From: Mariniblastus sp.
Lineage (GTDB): Bacteria; Planctomycetota; Planctomycetia; Pirellulales; Pirellulaceae
NCBI GenBank assembly: GCA_011523945.1
Contig: WTFU01000054.1
Location: 1 to 64,000, forward strand
DNA: 64,000 nucleotides
Reading direction: 5' to 3'
Shown here: in pieces, positions 31,158 to 41,010 of the stretch
How positions within the stretch are numbered: position 1 is the first letter of the stretch
Layout of the letters: each line of letters starts with the position of its first letter
Made by a program: the position numbers and the translations under genes
Notes under the pieces: model-generated
Told to the model about the DNA's origin: nothing
Databases searched by the model: none
What the model saw: only the letters and a program-made list of their open reading frames with translations

Positions 31158-32135
31158 ATGAAAAGTCCGGTTCGAGTTACCGTCACAGGCGCTGCAGGCC
31201 AGATTAGTTACGGCTTGCTGTTTCGTATTGCTGCCGGTGAAATGCTAGGGCCTGACCAACCGGTCATACTGCAGTTACTTGAAATCACACCCGCCATGAA
31301 TGCACTCCAAGGTGTCGTCATGGAACTTGATGACTGTGCCTTTCCACTCCTTCACGGGATTGTCGCAACCGATGATCCCAACGTCGGTTTTGCCGATGCC
31401 GACTACGCACTTCTCGTCGGAGCCATGCCTCGACGAAAGGGAATGGAAAGAAAAGATCTTCTGACAGCAAACTCCAAGATTTTCTCGGAACAAGGGAAAG
31501 CGATCAACGATCACGCCAAGAAAGACATTAAAGTCTTGGTCGTTGGGAACCCGGCAAATACGAATGCGTTGATCACAATGGCAAACGCTCCTTCGATCAA
31601 GCATGGGAATATTACGGCTATGACCCGCCTCGATCACAATCGCGCTTTAAGCCAACTTGCCTCGAAAACTGGCAAGCACTCCACCGACATTAAAAAACTG
31701 ACTATCTGGGGAAACCACTCATCCACACAATATCCCGATATTAGCCACGCTACTATCTCTGGCGAGTCTGCTGCCCAGCAAATCGAACAAGATTGGTACC
31801 GTGAGACGTTTATCCCAACTGTACAAAAACGAGGCGCAGCAATCATCGAAGCCCGCGGCGCCTCAAGTGCAGCGTCCGCCGCCAATGCGGCGATCGACCA
31901 TATCCGAACCTGGGAATCCGGCACTGACGAGGGGGACTGGGTAAGCATGGCCATTCCGAGTGATGGAAGTTACGGAATCGATGAGGGCGTAATTTATTCA
32001 TTCCCTTGCACCTGCAGCAACGGCGAATACCAAATCGTACAAAATCTCGACATCGACGAGTTTAGCCGTGAAAAAATGGATGCCACGCTGGCTGAACTCA
32101 AAGAAGAACGTGATGAAGTTAAAGATTTGCTTTAA
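31158..32135 (+). CDS. mdh: Malate dehydrogenase
   Basis: [70 protein letters not shown]. Confidence 0.97.
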
Positions 32136-32225: not shown

Positions 32226-32419
32226 ATCGACAGATCACTTGTTTTGCTAGCTCAAAAAACCTGCAATCATAAATTCAAAATCGCGTGCACATCTCTCAAT
32301 CTAAAACACTCCGCCCTCGCTTTTGCAGCGTATGCAGTTGACTTTCAATTCCAAGTTATTTACAAACTGAAACCTTGGAAAGCACGAAAACTCGTCAGTC
32401 AAGGAAATTCGACAGACGC

Positions 32420-33157
32420 ATGAATAGAATCAAAATCAGCCCCTTGGCCTCCGTTAGTGCCGACGATATCTCGACTAAAGATTCGACCCTAAACTCGCTC
32501 GACCAGTTCGATAAAATAACCAATCGTTCTGATCAGTATTCTCTGTTTGTGCCGCTCCATTACGAAAAAAATTACGCTTACCCACTCATTGTGTGGCTTC
32601 ACTCTGACGGATCTCAATCTACCGAAATCCAGCAAATCATGCCGCATGCGAGCGTCCGGAATTTTGTTGGGATAGCACCGCAATCTCCTATTGGAAATTT
32701 TGAGGCTGGATATTTTTGGGAACAAGAAATCGACACCATCGACTTGGCTCACGATTCAATTCTCGCCGCCATCGACGCAGCGTCGATGCGATACAACATC
32801 GCTTCTAATCGGATTTTCATTGGAGGCGCAGGTACAGGTGGAACTATGGCCTTTCGAATTGCGTTCGAAAGGCCCGAACTGTTCGCTGGAGTAATTTCCA
32901 TGAACGGCCCACTTCCAGAACGTGAGAAACCACTGGGCTGTTGGTCAGAAAGTCGACAATTACCGGTGTTTTGGGCACATGGCCGTAACAATAAAGAATT
33001 CGAGCAAAGCCAATTGTGCCAGCAACTTCGTTTACTTCACATTGCAGGTTTTTCAGTCACACTGCGACAGTATCCCACGGAGACCTGTACCAATGAAAAA
33101 ACGCTATCGGATATGAATCGTTGGATCATGGAAACCATCGACTCGACGGTTAGCTAA
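32420..33157 (+). CDS. Alpha/beta-hydrolase fold (phospholipase/carboxylesterase-like) protein, probably catalytically inactive
   Basis: IFIGGAGTGGTMAFRIAFERPELFAGVISMNG aligns by eye to the esterase nucleophile-elbow region but lacks Ser; downstream FWAHGRNNKEF and YPTETCTNEKTLSDMNRWI correspond to the HGxxD and H regions. Confidence 0.7.
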   Translation: MNRIKISPLASVSADDISTKDSTLNSLDQFDKITNRSDQYSLFVPLHYEKNYAYPLIVWLHSDGSQSTEIQQIMPHASVRNFVGIAPQSPIGNFEAGYFWEQEIDTIDLAHDSILAAIDAASMRYNIASNRIFIGGAGTGGTMAFRIAFERPELFAGVISMNGPLPEREKPLGCWSESRQLPVFWAHGRNNKEFEQSQLCQQLRLLHIAGFSVTLRQYPTETCTNEKTLSDMNRWIMETIDSTVS

Positions 33158-33416
33158 ATCCATCGCACCACTGTTCCGTTGCCAGCAATGCTGCATCTGT
33201 TCATTGAACTTATCTTGCAACGTCTTTCGCGCTGATCAGACATTAAAAACCATGGTTCTCCATGGCTTATTGCTCTTGAGGCACTAGTTGAGCGTAGTAA
33301 AAGCTGCCTTGACTCTCTCGCTCGATTTCAGCTAAAAGTCGCATCTGCTGTTGCCTAGGAATTGCGTTTCTAGCAATGCAGTTTTGCACAAATTATTACC
33401 TATCGATCGAACGTCC

Positions 33417-33941
33417 ATGCAATTGAACCGCAGACGAGTAGTACCTGAGGTTGACCAACCCCAGCTTACAGATATCGGACAGTTAACCCACGACATTCTG
33501 GACCGCTATCGACTTCAAATGGCAGACCAAAACATTTTACTCGAAACGGATTTCGATTCCGTAGAAGCATCGATCGCCACGTCAAAAATTCAATCCATTG
33601 TGACCGCATTGATTGAGAACGCACTTGAGCCGATGAGTCATGGTGGCGAAATCTCCGTAACATTAATTGATGGAAAGTACCAATGGGAACTTGAGGTAGC
33701 CGATTCGTTTGGCATGGCTTTCAGCAACGCAGACCCGCTCCGTCGGAATTCCGACGAACATCTCCCCACGATTATTCCATTCCCTGAATCGCAACAACTA
33801 CGAGACGCTCACCTCACCGCCATTTCTCTGGGCGCCCAAATTGAGACCTGGAACTGTCCGCAAGGTGGAACCGCACGCGTCCTCACGGTACCGCGTCAAC
33901 ATAAAAACCAAAAACCGGAAATGCAATTCTCAACTTTTTAA
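33417..33941 (+). CDS. Stand-alone histidine-kinase-like (GHKL) ATPase domain protein
   Basis: DIGQLTHDILDRYRLQMADQNILLETDFDSVEASIATSKIQSIVTALIENALEPMSHGGEISVTL matches the linker and N-box region of HK catalytic domains; no phosphoacceptor domain. Confidence 0.65.
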   Translation: MQLNRRRVVPEVDQPQLTDIGQLTHDILDRYRLQMADQNILLETDFDSVEASIATSKIQSIVTALIENALEPMSHGGEISVTLIDGKYQWELEVADSFGMAFSNADPLRRNSDEHLPTIIPFPESQQLRDAHLTAISLGAQIETWNCPQGGTARVLTVPRQHKNQKPEMQFSTF

Positions 33942-33992
33942 AACAACACATTCAAGGCGTTCTTGAGTCACCTCTTACACACTGACAATCTG

Positions 33993-35510
33993 ATGGATAG
34001 CCAGCCAATAACATTCGAAAACGTAATCAGATTTGCCAGGCAGCGGCGCATCCGTGCATTGTTTGTTGGCGTTACTATGCTTGCCGTGCTTGCCGTGCTT
34101 CAAGTCCAACAACAAACTAGCGACTCCCGTTTATGCGAACTTTATCCGAATGCCAAATTGAGCGAAGGGGAATTGTATCGTCTCGAAGTAGCTCTAATCC
34201 AAGAAGACCTCGACGAATTCGAAACAAGTACCGAGGGCAAACTGCTCGTCCCGACCAGCAAACGACTGGAATATATGAAAGCGATTGCACGACAGGACGC
34301 AGAACCAATTGACTATCGGAAACTAGAAGGCACTGAAGACGCTACCCCAAGCATTTTCCTTCCAAAATCCGCGCGTGATGCAATCACACTGGAAACCAGA
34401 AAAAAGAAAATTGAAAAAAATATCCTGAGATTGCCGTATATCGTTGAGGCAATCTTTGAAATGGACCAACCATCTGGATTTACGACATTTCAAAAACAAC
34501 AACTTCGAGCATCCATTTCACTTGCTACGAAAGACACCGTGCCGTTAACCGAGGAACACGTAAAAACAATCAAGGCGATCATTCAGGTTGCTGCTGGAGT
34601 CGAGTTAAATGACATTGTCATGATCGACCTTAATACCGGGCTAATTCACGACGAGCCTCCATCAAAATTAACTGACAAAAATATCTGCAATGTTGCCTCT
34701 GACATCTCCAAAACAAAACGCACCTGCGAGAATCGCATCAGTGAAGCACTTACCATGTATCCCGAGATTAAGGCAACCGTAGACATTTCCGTCGAACCTG
34801 CCACAGCTAATCTAGCTCTGAAACAAAAAAGAGAAATGAAACCAACGCAGGTATCGAAAACAGGCTCGCCTTCATTTCTTTTGGCCGGAGCCAACGCTGC
34901 CGTCAAACTTGACACAGCACCTTACCAGATTCCAGAGGCGGACCAACAAGAAATTGAATCTCCAAGGAACATGACCAAGCTCGTTTCAATTTCCATCGAT
35001 GTTCCGGAACAGTTAGTAAATGACTGTATCCAGGCGTCACACTCGACTTTAAGTAAAAATGATCAGGAAACTTTAGCCTTGAACCAAGAAGTGTTCAGCT
35101 CGCAATTTAAGAATCTAAAATCTGAAATATCTAAAAAAATTGAATCGACTCTCATGGCTATACCAGATCTAAAATGCGACGACTCAATTGCATTTAATCT
35201 AATTCCAGCAACGAAGACTGCCGCAGTACCACTGGATTTGCGGCTAAAACAAATCGCTGCGGAAAACTGGCCTTCCGGCATTGTCTTACTCGTCGGCCTG
35301 TTCCTTTTGGTTTCGATTTCCCGTGGTACCGACCCTCTTCCGAATGACACAAATCTTCAATTCTCAAGCCGCAACAGACAATCAGGCACGAACTCTGCAA
35401 TTGACGCAACCCCTTCCTCAGACTCAGAAGCGCGATTGACTCAACTCATTGAAAAAGATCCAGATGCCGCGGCAAGAGTCATTGAGTCATGGATCCGTGA
35501 CGCGGCTTAA
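33993..35510 (+). CDS. FliF-like MS-ring protein (divergent)
   Basis: N-terminal TM; LYPNAKLSEGELYRLEVALIQEDLDEF..LLVPTSKRLEYMKAIARQD and RASISLATKDTVPLTEEHVKTIKAIIQVAAGVELNDIVMIDLNTGLI resemble FliF; second TM; C-terminal LIEKDPDAAARVIESWIRDAA resembles the FliG-binding tail. Confidence 0.75.
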   Translation: MDSQPITFENVIRFARQRRIRALFVGVTMLAVLAVLQVQQQTSDSRLCELYPNAKLSEGELYRLEVALIQEDLDEFETSTEGKLLVPTSKRLEYMKAIARQDAEPIDYRKLEGTEDATPSIFLPKSARDAITLETRKKKIEKNILRLPYIVEAIFEMDQPSGFTTFQKQQLRASISLATKDTVPLTEEHVKTIKAIIQVAAGVELNDIVMIDLNTGLIHDEPPSKLTDKNICNVASDISKTKRTCENRISEALTMYPEIKATVDISVEPATANLALKQKREMKPTQVSKTGSPSFLLAGANAAVKLDTAPYQIPEADQQEIESPRNMTKLVSISIDVPEQLVNDCIQASHSTLSKNDQETLALNQEVFSSQFKNLKSEISKKIESTLMAIPDLKCDDSIAFNLIPATKTAAVPLDLRLKQIAAENWPSGIVLLVGLFLLVSISRGTDPLPNDTNLQFSSRNRQSGTNSAIDATPSSDSEARLTQLIEKDPDAAARVIESWIRDAA

Positions 35511-35754
35511 AACGCCAGCTAGAAGTATCAACACTTGATTCATTGAATTATTCGAAAACGAAGAAATCTCGACCAGGTTTGATCAATGCTAGCGTCAATT
35601 GACCTTGCAAGCTACGAGAAATTCAGCGAAAAGTCCTGCCCTTGTTCCTCGGGGAAACTGAACGACTCCCAATCGATCATTTTTTTTTTCACGAAAAGTA
35701 AAAGCAAAATTTTACAGCGGCCCTTAATCGTTATCGTCCTACAAGGCGTCTGAG

Positions 35755-36636
35755 ATGAGACAAATTTTCAATTTTAATAAGACAATTTTGTCCCTCGGCA
35801 AATCCGCAAAACGATGCAGCCTGTTTGCCTGCATAACATTTGTTGTGTCCACTTGCTTACTGCCCAACAACTGCATTTTTGCTCAAACGAACTTTCAAGA
35901 TGGTGCTGCAAAGATTCCAGTTGAAGTTAAAGACCGCAAGTTGGAAATGGAATTTCCGGAGTTCGATGACGAGCAATGGGATGGGAGGAAGACAAGTTAC
36001 GACAATAGCCTCCCGAAACCTCTCCCGGCGAAGCCCCCGATTGGCACACCAGAGCAAGATACCCCGCAACAACCCTCAAGTAATATTGGAGCTTCCCCAA
36101 CAACGCCACTTTCGAGCTTCAGCTCCACATTTGCAAACCTAGAACCTTGGCTCGGAAAACTAAAACAACTTACCGGCTCCTCCGACATCGGGAGGATGGT
36201 AGGCAGCCTGGCCCTCGTTCTCGGTCTTTACTTCGGATTCGTTTGGGTCATGCGAAAACTAAGTCCGTCCGGCAGTCAGAACCTACCGCGAGAAGTTCTT
36301 GAGCTAGTTGGGCAAATCCCATTTGGCCCCAAGCGAAACTTACAATTAATTCGCTTGGGTAGCAAACTCTTGTTAATTATCAATAGTGCAGAAGGCTCTC
36401 AGGCCATTGGAGAAATTACCGACCCAAATGAGGTTGAGTACTTAGTTTCCTTATGCGGAGGCCGCCGCCATCCGTTCGAACCAAAAATGAGACCGGCCCC
36501 CGCCCCCACACCTGTTCCCGCCACTGCTCCCCCTCAACCATCTCAGTCACAAGCTCAGCAACAAAACAATCTCGCGAGCATTCTGCGAACTCTTGACTTA
36601 TCTGCTCATTCCAATAACTCAGTTTTCGAAGCCTAA
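35755..36636 (+). CDS. fliO: FliO-like flagellar biosynthetic protein
   Basis: MVGSLALVLGLYFGFVWVMRKL...LPREVLELVGQIPFGPKRNLQLIRLGSKLLLI; located upstream of fliP. Confidence 0.8.
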   Translation: MRQIFNFNKTILSLGKSAKRCSLFACITFVVSTCLLPNNCIFAQTNFQDGAAKIPVEVKDRKLEMEFPEFDDEQWDGRKTSYDNSLPKPLPAKPPIGTPEQDTPQQPSSNIGASPTTPLSSFSSTFANLEPWLGKLKQLTGSSDIGRMVGSLALVLGLYFGFVWVMRKLSPSGSQNLPREVLELVGQIPFGPKRNLQLIRLGSKLLLIINSAEGSQAIGEITDPNEVEYLVSLCGGRRHPFEPKMRPAPAPTPVPATAPPQPSQSQAQQQNNLASILRTLDLSAHSNNSVFEA

Positions 36637-36662
36637 CCAGCAGTCTATTTTTAGTTTTTAAA

Positions 36663-37652
36663 TTGCACACTTTTCGTTCCAAATTAACATCAGCGCATGC
36701 GTTACTTCGGTACTGCGCGTTGGCTTTGTTTAGCATTGGCCTATTGGTCGGCAACCAAACAGCCGCGGCGCAGTTGTCGAGCCCAGATTCGCTCGATGAA
36801 CAAAACTCACAAACCGCCAGTTCTTCAGATCAGCTGCCCAGTGAAGTTAGAAGTCAACTTGGGTTAGCAATTCCGCCTGGCTCCCCGACAACGTCACTGG
36901 GCGCTTCCCCTGACCACGCAGCTTCTTCCCTTCAGCCATCGGTCACATCTTTTCTATCATCACCGACCGACCAGCTAACATCTCCCCAGGGTTTAACCTC
37001 CTCCATAAAAGTTGCCTTAATCTTGGCAACCTTGAGTCTGGCTCCAGCGATTGTCCTGATGACAACCTGCTACGTGAGAGTCATCGTGGTTTTAACCTTG
37101 CTCAAGCAAGCATTTGGGGCTCAACAATTACCTCCGACACAAGTTTTGACAGCTCTCTCACTGTTCGTGACGTTGCTAATCATGACACCCGTTTGGCAGG
37201 AAGTAAAAAATGAAGCAATTGACCCCTATACACAAACGGAAAATGGAATCAGTTGGGAGGAGGCATGGACCCGCGGAATTGCCCCCGTGAAAACATTCAT
37301 GGCCAAACAGATTGAAGCTGCGGGAAATGCAGAATCGATTGCGGTATTTTACAAATACGTCCCCGAATACTCCGAAGCGGCACCAACTAGCGCACAGGAG
37401 GTTCCAATCAATGTCCTGTTACCCGCATTCATGGTGAGTGAACTTAAGGTAGCGTTCTTACTTGGTTTTCAAATCTTTCTTCCATTTTTAGTTCTTGATC
37501 TAGTTGTCTCATCCGTCACTGTCTCGACGGGAATGCTAATGTTGCCTCCGACAATGGTTAGCTTTCCTTTAAAACTCATACTGTTTGTGTTGGTGGATGG
37601 CTGGAATCTTGTGGTGGGAATGTTACTTCAAAGCTTCCTTCCCATCACCTGA
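36663..37652 (+). CDS. fliP: Flagellar biosynthetic protein FliP
   Basis: LATLSLAPAIVLMTTCYVRVIVVLTLLKQAFGAQQLPPTQVLTALSLFVTLLIMTPVW; ELKVAFLLGFQIFLPFLVLDLVVSSVTVSTGMLMLPPTMVSFPLKLILFVLVDGWNL. Confidence 0.95.
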   Translation: MHTFRSKLTSAHALLRYCALALFSIGLLVGNQTAAAQLSSPDSLDEQNSQTASSSDQLPSEVRSQLGLAIPPGSPTTSLGASPDHAASSLQPSVTSFLSSPTDQLTSPQGLTSSIKVALILATLSLAPAIVLMTTCYVRVIVVLTLLKQAFGAQQLPPTQVLTALSLFVTLLIMTPVWQEVKNEAIDPYTQTENGISWEEAWTRGIAPVKTFMAKQIEAAGNAESIAVFYKYVPEYSEAAPTSAQEVPINVLLPAFMVSELKVAFLLGFQIFLPFLVLDLVVSSVTVSTGMLMLPPTMVSFPLKLILFVLVDGWNLVVGMLLQSFLPIT

Positions 37653-37736
37653 CTGAAAACGCTTTAACAACACCGTTGCCCGAGACTTTCCCTCGAGCCT
37701 CACTTTTCAAATTACGCGATCTTACTGGATCACAAG

Positions 37737-38282
37737 ATGAACCCCGAAGATGCAATCGACTTCAGTCGCGAAGCCATGAAAACGTGCATGTTAGTTGGAG
37801 GCCCAATTCTCGTGACTAGCTTACTCGTTGGCTTGATCATCGGCGTTATTCAAACCATGACCCAGGTTCAGGATCAAACGGTTTCGTTTGTTCCCAAAAT
37901 CCTCATTTTGATTGCCGTAATTGGACTCTGCCTACCCTGGCTGACTGAACGCATGACCGATTTCGCTCGAATGTCATTTGAAAAGCCAATGACTCAATGG
38001 GCAAGTTCTCCCCCACCGACACTCTTCGCCAGTGCCTCCGAAGTAGAAACTAAATCAGATTCAACCGATGCAATTTCGGAACCCATCGCGACAACGCGGG
38101 CTTCCAACATAAAGCCTGACAATTCTATCTTTTCTCTCATCGGTCAGTTTCAAAAAATTGAGCAATCGATGGAGCAACCGACCCAACGCGACCCTGACAG
38201 TCAATCGGAAGCATCTAACAATCCGTTCCTACTTCCTCATTATCGCGTCTCCAAAGCACCCCGGACTGAAAAAGGCGGGTAA
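37737..38282 (+). CDS. fliQ: Flagellar biosynthetic protein FliQ with C-terminal extension
   Basis: AMKTCMLVGGPILVTSLLVGLIIGVIQTMTQVQDQTVSFVPKILIL is FliQ; additional ~90 aa disordered tail. Confidence 0.92.
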   Translation: MNPEDAIDFSREAMKTCMLVGGPILVTSLLVGLIIGVIQTMTQVQDQTVSFVPKILILIAVIGLCLPWLTERMTDFARMSFEKPMTQWASSPPPTLFASASEVETKSDSTDAISEPIATTRASNIKPDNSIFSLIGQFQKIEQSMEQPTQRDPDSQSEASNNPFLLPHYRVSKAPRTEKGG

Positions 38283-38284
38283 CA

Positions 38285-39061
38285 ATGGATTCAGCATTGA
38301 TCTTTTTTCTTGTATTCTCAAGGGTTACGGCATTGGTGATGACGGCACCAATTTTTGGCAGCCGATCTGTGCCGTTAAAAATTCGATTGGGAACTGCCGT
38401 GCTTTTGAGCTTGACTGCATTTCCATTAATTACACTTCCCGAATTCGAACCATCCAATCTTGAGAGCCTTTTTTCGGCAATCTTTAGCGAAGTTGTCATT
38501 GGCTCACTTTTAGGATTGGGGGTAATGATAATGTTTTCAGCCGCTCAATTTGCCGGAACCGTTATCGGGCAAATGGCAGGAATTCAAATCTCCAATACAC
38601 TTGATCCGCAAACTGGCGAAAACTCATCCACCATCAGCCAGTTGTTTGCCATTCTTTCACTAGCTGCATTTGCCCTCGCTGGTGGCCCCGAATTAGTTAT
38701 TTCTGCGCTTCTTGATACATTTATTCATCTCCCACTTGGAACCGAATTAGCCCCTAATCGAATAAGCGAAATTTTAGTCAGCCTCTTGCAACAGAGTTTC
38801 ATCTTAACACTTCGCGGCGTCGCTCCGGCAGTTGCCGCAATGCTAATTGCGACCATCATAATTGGGTTCGTCAGCCGAACTTACCCGCAAATGAACCTGC
38901 TTGGCATGGGACTCAGTTCCAATCTTATCGTGATGCTTCTCGCGGTTTTTTTGACCCTAGGCGGTAGCGTGTGGTTATTCGTAGACGATTTGGATCACTT
39001 CGTTTCAATGATCACAGATTCCATGCAATCGTCGATCAAAGAGGTCGCAAAGAATGAGTGA
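38285..39061 (+). CDS. fliR: Flagellar biosynthetic protein FliR
   Basis: FFLVFSRVTALVMTAPIFGSRSVPLKIRLGTAVLLS, ...FAGTVIGQMAGIQISNTLDPQTGENSSTISQL. Confidence 0.93.
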   Translation: MDSALIFFLVFSRVTALVMTAPIFGSRSVPLKIRLGTAVLLSLTAFPLITLPEFEPSNLESLFSAIFSEVVIGSLLGLGVMIMFSAAQFAGTVIGQMAGIQISNTLDPQTGENSSTISQLFAILSLAAFALAGGPELVISALLDTFIHLPLGTELAPNRISEILVSLLQQSFILTLRGVAPAVAAMLIATIIIGFVSRTYPQMNLLGMGLSSNLIVMLLAVFLTLGGSVWLFVDDLDHFVSMITDSMQSSIKEVAKNE

Positions 39062-39806
39062 ATCCATGGAAGACCGCATTCACCAGGCAACTCCAAGCCG
39101 ACGGCAACAAGCCCGACAGAATGGCGATATTGTCAAGAGTCATGAAATGGCTGCCGCCGTCCAAATGCTTGGTGCCATTGCAATTACCTACTATCTGCTT
39201 GGAGGTATCAGCAACTGGATTCGCAACTGGACCGCTGAAATTTGGACATTAGCCTCGGGCAACTTAAACATGTCCAATCAGGAATTCACCGAACAGATTC
39301 AACTCACTATCCTCGGTGCCGTTACTCACCTCGCACCTCTGCTGTGCCTACTCGTTGTCGTAGGAGTGGTTTCCCACTGGATTCAATCTGGCCCACTCTT
39401 ATTGCCTGGACGAGTTTCCCCCGATCCAACGCGACTGGCATCTGGTGCATGGAGAAACATTTTCTCATTTAGTGGATTCTTTACCATCATCACTGGGATT
39501 CCTAAAACGATCGTCGCAGGAATCGCAGGAGGAACAAGTATTTGGATTCAACAAGCAAGTTTTTTTCAGTTGGCGAACCTACCAATTGACTTAATGGCTA
39601 CCAAACTGCTGGGCCTCGTACTCGGTGTTTCACTACACGTTGCAATTACTCTCTTGTTTGCATCGACATTAGACTTCTTCATGAAATTTGTCAGTCATGA
39701 AAATCGTCTCAAAATGACCGACCAACAACTACGCGACGAAATGAGAATGCAAAACGGCGATCCTCAGATTCACCGGCGGCGTCAAGAATTGAGCCGATTA
39801 AGATAA
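39054..39806 (+). CDS. flhB: FlhB-like export protein lacking the C-terminal autocleavage domain
   Basis: Starts EDRIHQATPSRRQQARQNGDIVKSHEM (FlhB EKTExPTPKRxxxAR-like), TM block, then KMTDQQLRDEMRMQNGDPQIHRRRQELSRLR and stop; 8-nt overlap with fliR. Confidence 0.9.
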   Translation: MSESMEDRIHQATPSRRQQARQNGDIVKSHEMAAAVQMLGAIAITYYLLGGISNWIRNWTAEIWTLASGNLNMSNQEFTEQIQLTILGAVTHLAPLLCLLVVVGVVSHWIQSGPLLLPGRVSPDPTRLASGAWRNIFSFSGFFTIITGIPKTIVAGIAGGTSIWIQQASFFQLANLPIDLMATKLLGLVLGVSLHVAITLLFASTLDFFMKFVSHENRLKMTDQQLRDEMRMQNGDPQIHRRRQELSRLR

Positions 39807-39849: not shown

Positions 39850-41010
39850 TCAGCCCGTCGCGCTTTCAAATGGATCTGAATAACCAAATTCATCCATGTA
39901 GCGATGCCAATTGTTATCAATTTCAAGTTCGAGCGAAGACTCAAGCGTAAAAGGGTTCTTTTTATGGTGCTTTTTGCGCTCGAAATACTCTATCAGCGAC
40001 GGCTCTAGTTCCGCAAACCCATCCATCTCAAGTTGGTCGTAAACTCGTTCCATTTCGCCGATCGGCTCAGAGATGAGATTTTCAAAGTTAACCTCAACTA
40101 ATTGGTTTTTTGGAATCGAATCACGTTGATTAAAGTAGGCCGAATACATCAGATCTTTACACTCAAAAATGTAGTTTTTGAGCCATGTATCATCGTATCT
40201 TGGAATCTGAAATCCTTGAAGCGAATCCAAAAGCTTCCATAGCCTCATCGTCGAAGGCACAAGTTTGTGCGGGTGACGCGCCATGTGAACAAACTTCGCC
40301 CCGGGAAACCAGTCGGCCAACTGCGACAGACGTCCGGTGTGAGGAGGTGACTTCAGAACCAACTGCGAGTCGTACCTGACCGTAAGTGCCTTTAGGAAAT
40401 AATCCATGGCCACGTGCAATCGCTCCTGCACCTCGTAATCCGCATCAGAAAGTTTGAGATTTAGGTGCTCTCGATTCGGTTGATTCGGAAACGCAATCCT
40501 ACGGTAAGGCGTTGGAGCTCCATAAGCACACAATGCAAAATCATCTTCTTGAGGAGACCCGACTCCCATCGACATATTGTCCATCGGTCGTTGCCGAGGC
40601 ATCAATAATTTCAAAAAGGGATAAAAAAAGAAGCGTGAAGCAAGAAAATGATTGGGAATAAATGCATCAAAATTCGTTGGAAAGGCCAATCGCGAATCCA
40701 AAGACATCAACTCATGCATCAACGTCGTGCCGGAACGCCAATGCCCAATAATAAAAACGGGGGGCTTTTTGAGTTGAGCAGACTCAATCACACTTCCGTG
40801 CGTAACATCTTGGACCTGAGCGAGGATTGAATTCATCACGGCGCATCCACCGCCGAGAGCAAACATTGGATACTTGAACGGATGGATCTTAAAACGGTTC
40901 TCTCTCATTAACCGCAGATAATCACCCAAACGCATCCCGTTCCAAAACCTGGGGGCCCACGGCGGATACCAATTAGGTTTCGGTTTTGATTTTGTAGATG
41001 TATTTGACAT
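39850..41010 (-). CDS. Sulfotransferase family protein
   Basis: PAPS-loop-like FIIGHWRSGTTLMHELMSLD; KSPPHTGRLSQLADWFPGAKFVHMARHP. Confidence 0.88.
   Translation of the reverse strand: MSNTSTKSKPKPNWYPPWAPRFWNGMRLGDYLRLMRENRFKIHPFKYPMFALGGGCAVMNSILAQVQDVTHGSVIESAQLKKPPVFIIGHWRSGTTLMHELMSLDSRLAFPTNFDAFIPNHFLASRFFFYPFLKLLMPRQRPMDNMSMGVGSPQEDDFALCAYGAPTPYRRIAFPNQPNREHLNLKLSDADYEVQERLHVAMDYFLKALTVRYDSQLVLKSPPHTGRLSQLADWFPGAKFVHMARHPHKLVPSTMRLWKLLDSLQGFQIPRYDDTWLKNYIFECKDLMYSAYFNQRDSIPKNQLVEVNFENLISEPIGEMERVYDQLEMDGFAELEPSLIEYFERKKHHKKNPFTLESSLELEIDNNWHRYMDEFGYSDPFESATG

Follow-up and report, generated by a model that had tools for sequence, protein, structure and literature searches.

What is left of a flagellum once its motor, rod, hook and filament are gone, and why would a bacterium keep it? 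The question is raised by a 64,000-nucleotide stretch of Mariniblastus sp. (Planctomycetota; Pirellulales; assembly GCA_011523945.1, contig WTFU01000054.1, positions 1 to 64,000 of the forward strand), hereafter the window, in which seven collinear genes at positions 33417-39806 encode a FliF-type ring protein, the FliO, FliP, FliQ and FliR components of an export gate, a truncated FlhB and, ahead of them, a fragment of a histidine kinase. We consider it fairly probable that this cluster is a conserved, reduced, ATPase-less and non-flagellar derivative of a flagellar type III system, possibly controlling sigma-28 via FlgM. As regards its persistence, the reduced cluster would represent a conserved state and not decay, because the same syntenic set is shared by 15 Mariniblastus genomes and 15 genomes of another family of the order (f8), with ratios of nonsynonymous to synonymous substitution rates (dN/dS) well under 1.

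Gene content of the cluster

A check of open reading frames (ORFs) placed all seven genes on the + strand, at the coordinates that a previous sequence-only reading of this DNA had given them:

33417 to 33941, + strand: HATPase_c-like histidine kinase remnant, 174 amino acids (profile and comparison with relatives)
33993 to 35510, + strand: FliF-type MS-ring protein (weak profile match and predicted structure)
35755 to 36636, + strand: FliO (Pfam/NCBIfam)
36663 to 37652, + strand: FliP, flagellar type (over the TIGR01103 cut-off, below the SctR cut-off)
37737 to 38282, + strand: FliQ with a C-terminal extension of about 95 amino acids (Pfam/NCBIfam)
38285 to 39061, + strand: FliR (Pfam/NCBIfam)
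39054 to 39806, + strand: FlhB, transmembrane domain only, 250 amino acids, its stop preceding the NPTH autocleavage/switch domain (Pfam/NCBIfam)

The proteins of the window were identified by Pfam and NCBIfam profile searches, which bore out the identities proposed in the sequence-only reading for the ring and gate genes. FliP reached 224 bits in Pfam and 226.2 bits with the fliP model TIGR01103 (cut-off 217), and stayed at 166.5 bits, under the cut-off of 208.6, with the SctR model TIGR01102. Matches were likewise obtained for FliQ (5e-26), FliR (9e-50), FliO (2.6e-6, cut-off exceeded) and FlhB (5e-42, covering only positions 2-237 of the 335 in the profile). FliP, FliQ, FliR and FlhB all score higher with flagellar than with Sct models, FliP being the only one to pass the flagellar cut-off. 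FliO, FliP, FliQ, FliR and the N-terminal two thirds of FlhB are identified beyond doubt. FliF is weak by sequence (YscJ_FliF, 5e-4 in Pfam); its AlphaFold model, built from a 20-sequence alignment with a modest mean predicted local distance difference test (pLDDT) score of 65.5, finds FliF/MS-ring structures as its top matches in the PDB, with E values from 5e-19 (best, 9a67) to 1e-7, followed by injectisome ring proteins, and it also matches the SctJ proteins EscJ and PrgK. The FliF start is probably the ATG at 33993, which opens a conserved 'MD', rather than the TTG at 33963 where the ORF opens. The protein retains a C-terminal helix, DPDAAARVIESWIRDAA, counterpart of the FliG-binding end of FliF.

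Two genes depart from their flagellar counterparts. The truncation of FlhB, which the sequence-only reading had also noticed, is real, because the stop lies 43 bp from the convergent sulfotransferase gene and no stand-alone FlhB C-terminal domain (FlhB-C) was found in a search of the window's own assembly (G000; 208 contigs, 92% complete). The first gene had been described as encoding an ATPase-like protein. It has neither a HisKA phospho-acceptor domain nor a C-terminal GTGLGL box, the kinases of its relatives consist of HisKA plus HATPase_c, and it appears to be a degenerate remnant of the histidine kinase of the flagellar operon; we rejected it as an independent ATPase, given this derivation. 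Within the window we found no FlhA, FliI or FliG gene and, among the matches listed, no rod gene, as had been reported; the cluster itself contains no FliI, rod or hook gene and no secretin, and the copies of FlhA, FliG and FliI in the genome all lie outside the window contig.

A flagellar operon reduced in place

Orthologues of the window FliF in relatives lie inside full flagellar operons, whose order is malate/lactate dehydrogenase (MDH) - esterase - histidine kinase - flgC - fliF - fliG - fliH ... flgE ... fliN - fliO - P - Q - R - flhB - sulfotransferase. The window has identical outer neighbours, and the middle genes are gone:

31158 to 32135, + strand: MDH family gene on the upstream side, belonging to the conserved neighbourhood but not to the machine
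32375 to 33157, + strand: esterase, upstream flank
39850 to 41010, - strand: sulfotransferase, downstream flank, which adjoins flhB in full flagellar operons too

On the evidence of gene order, the native flagellar operon of the order has collapsed in place to give the window set. In a tree of FliP-Q-R-FlhB (LG+F+R4; support labels approximate after re-rooting), reduced genomes of family f3 join a full-flagellum genome of that same family (support 97), reduced f1 g8 genomes form a separate clade (support 100), and Mariniblastus, f8 and G169 make up a third (support 100), which by this tree makes at least three separate reductions, each leaving a similar set of gate genes.

Distribution across the order

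We searched 197 genomes of the order, mostly metagenome-assembled, for FliP, FliG, FlhA, FliI and rod proteins. The full pattern was found in 109 of them; another 25, spread across nine families, have the gate, FlhA, FliG and FliI without any rod protein; and 35 have the gate and FlhA only, 32 of these belonging to f8. Within that family FlhA was detected in 35/35 genomes and FliP in 32/35, while FliG, FliI and rod proteins were found in 0/35, an absence that draft assemblies cannot explain. The rod-less class includes a single-contig genome (G005). Its members with FliG and FliI (L053, L101, L103, L115-L122) also show FliF, FliH and FliN where the stretch allows, together with an FlhB without NPTH, and may be regarded as an intermediate in which the C-ring and ATPase are present and the axial structure is absent. 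A single order shows a graded series, from full flagella through rod-less systems with C-ring and ATPase to ring and gate only. It amounts to a natural experiment on the capabilities of an isolated flagellar export core.

Three proteins carry marks that we read as independent signatures of a new function. The NPTH motif of FlhB is present in 12/12 full-flagellum operons and in the canonical copy of G000, and is absent from every complete FlhB examined in rod-less or reduced systems, through point changes or through shortening to roughly 230-285 amino acids (a few high-GC FlhB ORFs are longer owing to upstream starts); the switch site has been lost in every rod-less system examined. In f8, which has no FliG, FliF is without the C-terminal FliG-binding helix, which Mariniblastus retains, just as G000 retains a second FliG. 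In the alignment, FlhA of reduced systems keeps the RFxLDxxPGxQMAIDxDL loop (with variants) and the entire cytosolic domain, the parts tied in the flagellum to energy coupling and substrate docking.

With regard to conservation, the contiguous FliF-O-P-Q-R-FlhB cluster is found in 15 Mariniblastus genomes, the window included, FliF itself occurs in 26/28 genomes of the genus, and in f8 every locus of sufficient length (15 of them) has the reduced cluster, flanked by the same genes wherever the contig extends that far. Pairwise comparisons of close genus members gave dN/dS values of 0.03-0.05 for FliR, the strongest constraint in the cluster, 0.05-0.09 for FlhB, 0.09-0.15 for FliP, 0.12-0.18 for FliO and 0.15-0.32 for FliF; the kinase remnant lies at 0.11-0.26 and the neighbouring dehydrogenase, taken as comparison gene, at 0.02-0.06. 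FliF is broken into two ORFs in one genome only (G223, assembly 71% complete). That ring and gate were retained under strong selection, although motor, ATPase, rod, hook and switch domain have been lost, suggests a second task for the export gate, unrelated to swimming.

A complete flagellum in the same genome

The sequence-only reading had left the choice between a dispersed flagellar regulon and a reduced, non-flagellar complex, and had proposed looking through the rest of the genome. Our search of G000 returned two each of FliP, FlhA, FlhB and FliF. Contig C108 encodes flagellin, FliD, FliS, FlgE, a full FlhB with NPTH, FliR, FliQ, FliI, FliH, FliG, FliF, FlgBC and MotAB, and contig C22 encodes FliN, FliO, FliP and FlhA; together they form an ordinary complete flagellum with its own gate. 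FliI occurs once, in the canonical C108 cluster, and the rod-type proteins, six among the matches listed, fit one canonical set, without being told apart individually. The window's FliF, gate and FlhB are highly divergent from the canonical copies. All the parts that the sequence-only reading had named, flhA, fliI, fliG, flgE and flagellin, exist elsewhere in the genome, and the window does not hold the only gate. Of its two options the reduced, non-flagellar complex is the one favoured, as clades without a flagellum keep the cluster, and the dispersed regulon does not, the canonical set having a gate of its own. Its picture of a complex lacking FlhA has also to be revised: a second FlhA (FlhA2), putative partner of the window set, lies on contig C3, apart from the canonical set, so that all five proteins of the FliPQR-FlhBA core are encoded (FliP, FliQ, FliR and the transmembrane FlhB in the window, FlhA2 on C3). 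Both FlhA types are found in G000 and in about eight further members of the genus, and the second type only in about 14 Mariniblastus genomes.

G000 has a second FliG, on contig C130, which six relatives share; f8 has none. On C130 (L079 9716-19899) it closes an operon-like run that also contains a secretin (PF00263), a 329-amino-acid uncharacterised protein and PilM-like genes, an order kept in the six relatives as far as their contigs extend. A functional tie of FliG to a secretin operon would be odd, and a tie of this secretin to the window gate is a candidate only.

Linkage of FlhA2 to sigma-28 and FlgM

FlhA2 is followed by a FliA/WhiG-type sigma factor (TIGR02479, over cut-off) and, about 1.1 kb beyond it in G000, by a small protein over the Pfam cut-off for FlgM (PF04316). 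FlgM is the anti-sigma-28 factor, normally exported by flagella upon hook completion. The FlhA-sigma-28-FlgM trio was recovered in 6/6 f8 loci and in 15/18 Mariniblastus loci; two of the three Mariniblastus loci without it are cases in which the stretch breaks off early or no sigma-28 was detected. FlgM was not found beside sigma-28 in three full-flagellum controls, nor in reduced f1 genomes of other genera (G122, G138, G161, G177). Bacteria with no other flagellar output in these searches therefore retain a sigma factor, its inhibitor and the inhibitor's usual exit gate.

Proposed function

We propose that the native operon lost its rod, hook, C-ring, ATPase and regulator genes in place and kept its membrane parts, namely FliF as an inner-membrane ring, FliO assisting FliP, and FliP, FliQ and FliR with the transmembrane collar of FlhB as a pore. 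FlhA2 would supply proton coupling and substrate docking, and the whole could form an export gate within an MS-like ring, driven by the proton motive force and independent of an ATPase. Without the FlhB switch domain, the hook-to-filament specificity switch would be gone, leaving a single-mode gate. Since sigma-28 and FlgM are encoded alongside FlhA2, the gate would most likely serve to control sigma-28, through export (or binding) of FlgM and perhaps of a few other small proteins; a first candidate substrate, and the only one with genetic linkage, is FlgM. The proposal draws on gene content, synteny, conservation, selection, the absence or joint loss of other parts, and the FlhA-sigma-28-FlgM linkage, all read from genomes; that the proteins assemble with FlhA, that anything is exported, and that FlgM is the substrate, we infer.

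In Salmonella, it is established that flagellar export can proceed without FliHI when the proton motive force or the supply of substrate is raised (PMC4230889). The transmembrane domain of FlhB belongs to the gate proper, FlhB-C governing the early/late switch (PMC7064499, PMC7911332). A more specific version, which we offer tentatively, is that the stripped gate is a signalling device: the FliF ring, FliPQR-FlhB(TM) and FlhA would export FlgM with neither ATPase nor switch, sigma-28 activity would be set by the state of the membrane (e.g. its proton motive force), and a flagellar export checkpoint would have outlived the flagellum, independently in several lineages.

Several observations weigh against our proposal. 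The non-cleavable FlhB variant N269A of Salmonella is deficient for late substrates, FlgM included (PMC7911332), and therefore the known route may be closed to FlgM in a gate that lacks FlhB-C; if FlgM does exit here, the rules must have changed. A scan for sigma-28 promoters (TAAA-N15-GCCGATAA) gave no clear site 5' of the window cluster and no consistent result; one good site was found 5' of the kinase remnant in G208, and the homologous site in the window is degenerate. The clade of Mariniblastus, f8 and G169 has long branches and crosses families, for which common descent, transfer and long-branch attraction are each possible. Five Mariniblastus genomes (L142, L143, L147, L148, L150) have FliF without adjoining gate genes and keep the second FlhA, and four of them show the kinase remnant in the fetched stretch.

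Alternative explanations

The alternative that fares best, although we find it rather unlikely, is that the complex serves as a scaffold or conduit in the membrane and not as an FlgM exporter, comparable to the role proposed for the FliPQR-FlhBA 'CORE' in nanotubes, or to the inner-membrane 'hat', a structure linked to the flagellar type III secretion core. The retained parts are precisely that core plus FliF, an involvement of the export apparatus in nanotubes has been proposed (PMC9380563; PMC7064499), and the hat is still there in several flagellar mutants and, in Campylobacter, has a normal appearance when FlhB-C is missing (PMC9380563). However, the hat survives fliF mutation, whereas FliF is retained here, we see no sequence signature of nanotube or hat function, and the conserved sigma-28/FlgM linkage would be left unexplained.

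That the cluster is a decaying remnant, the leftovers of a lost flagellum on their way out, strikes us as very improbable. In its favour are a truncated and degenerate kinase, a truncated FlhB, a fast-evolving FliF (dN/dS up to 0.32) and some relatives with no gate beside FliF; yet ORFs, order and flanks are maintained across two families, dN/dS is 0.03-0.15 for FliR, FlhB and FliP, the same kind of membrane parts was kept in independent reductions, and the split FliF is confined to G223.

A spare or alternative gate, cooperating with the canonical flagellum wherever a Mariniblastus genome encodes one, would fit G000 and the other genus members holding both FlhA types, and is very improbable in view of the majority of the genus and all of f8, which carry the reduced set without a canonical one, and of the high divergence of FliF, gate and FlhB from their canonical counterparts. 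We give slightly less credit to an ordinary flagellar locus, split over the genome and building the organism's flagellum: FliP is of flagellar type, FliF bears the FliG-binding helix, and flagellin, FliD, hook, rod, MotAB and FliG/H/I are all encoded, but the canonical set owns its FliF, FliO, FliP, FliQ, FliR, FlhB (with NPTH) and FlhA, the Mariniblastus genomes with the second FlhA type only have no place in this scenario, and sampled f8 genomes have gate genes and yet no rod, FliG or FliI. Least credible is a non-flagellar type III secretion system of the injectisome line (SctRSTUV), for which the shared core folds, the SctJ matches of the FliF model and the secretin gene adjoining the second FliG in G000 and six relatives can be cited, and against which stand a FliP that passes the flagellar model and fails SctR, the preference of FliQ, FliR and FlhB for flagellar models, the lack of an ATPase, the presence of FliO, and the grouping of the cluster with the order's own flagellar operons.

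Relation to known systems

Among known systems, the flagellar type III export apparatus with its MS ring comes closest. The window set shares with it the proteins, the gene order (fliF ... fliO-P-Q-R-flhB), the chromosomal neighbours of the order's full operons, a flagellar-type FliP, a complete FlhA, sigma-28 and FlgM. It differs in having no ATPase, rod, hook or filament of its own, an FlhB without NPTH and a kinase reduced to a fragment, to which f8 adds the absence of FliG and of the FliG-binding helix on FliF. Chlamydiae are also non-flagellated bacteria keeping a few flagellar membrane parts (FliI-FlhA-FliF in Chlamydia pneumoniae, PMC2830194; a chlamydial operon containing FliO, PMC12248157), but they retain the ATPase and FlhA/FliF alongside a full injectisome (PMC2830194, PMC12248157), whereas the window set has no ATPase and preserves the entire FliOPQR-FlhB pore, and a non-exhaustive search showed no injectisome. 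The myxococcal ('Myxo') secretin-less non-flagellar type III secretion system (Abby and Rocha 2012, PMC3459982) is similarly reduced, without rod/hook or secretin, syntenic, long conserved and thought to act at the inner membrane (PMC3459982); it belongs, however, to the Sct line, whereas the window gate is of flagellar type and would come from the order's own flagellar operon. The FliPQR-FlhBA 'CORE' in nanotubes and the inner-membrane hat structure (PMC9380563) likewise involve a core complex with a proposed role beyond flagella, described where flagellar genes also exist, whereas here whole clades have the core and FliF and no flagellum. Finally, flagellar type III secretion homologues are reported to control twitching in Lysobacter enzymogenes (PMC7277350), likewise a new role for such proteins, in a single non-flagellated strain outside Planctomycetes. 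We found no paper on reduced flagellar gates in Planctomycetes in an open-access library, which does not prove that none exists. The window set bears on how type III systems were reduced and repurposed, and on a flagellum-independent function of the FliPQR-FlhBA core.

Regulatory elements and further observations

One further feature lies within the cluster, identified by its conservation:

35584 to 35609, + strand: conserved non-coding block 5' of fliO, AATGCTAGCGTCAATTGACCTTGCA, probably regulatory

A promoter-like conserved block, TGCCTTGACTCTCTCGCT ... TTTCAGCTAAAAGT, is found 5' of the kinase remnant (window 33304-33338) in seven Mariniblastus genomes. The leader of the second flgM (flgM2; L008 12969-13353) comprises some 300-385 non-coding nucleotides that are mostly 80-98% invariant among four Mariniblastus genomes, unlike the genes of these genomes, which differ at many synonymous sites; an Rfam scan of the conserved leader returned nothing reliable. 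The element GCTAGCA-N6-8-GTCGATA, 5' of flgM, is shared across much of the genus, with a single occurrence in the G000 sequence examined, which is suggestive only.

The C-terminal extension of FliQ is present in most of the genus (ORFs of 162-232 amino acids), G199, G200 and G201 having FliQ of only about 95-100 amino acids in total, and is not seen in f8. In the reduced clusters of f3, the FliF ORFs of G002 (L091 8865-10763) and G081 (L092 2846-4762), of about 635 amino acids, also match the FliG profile, which suggests a FliF-FliG fusion.

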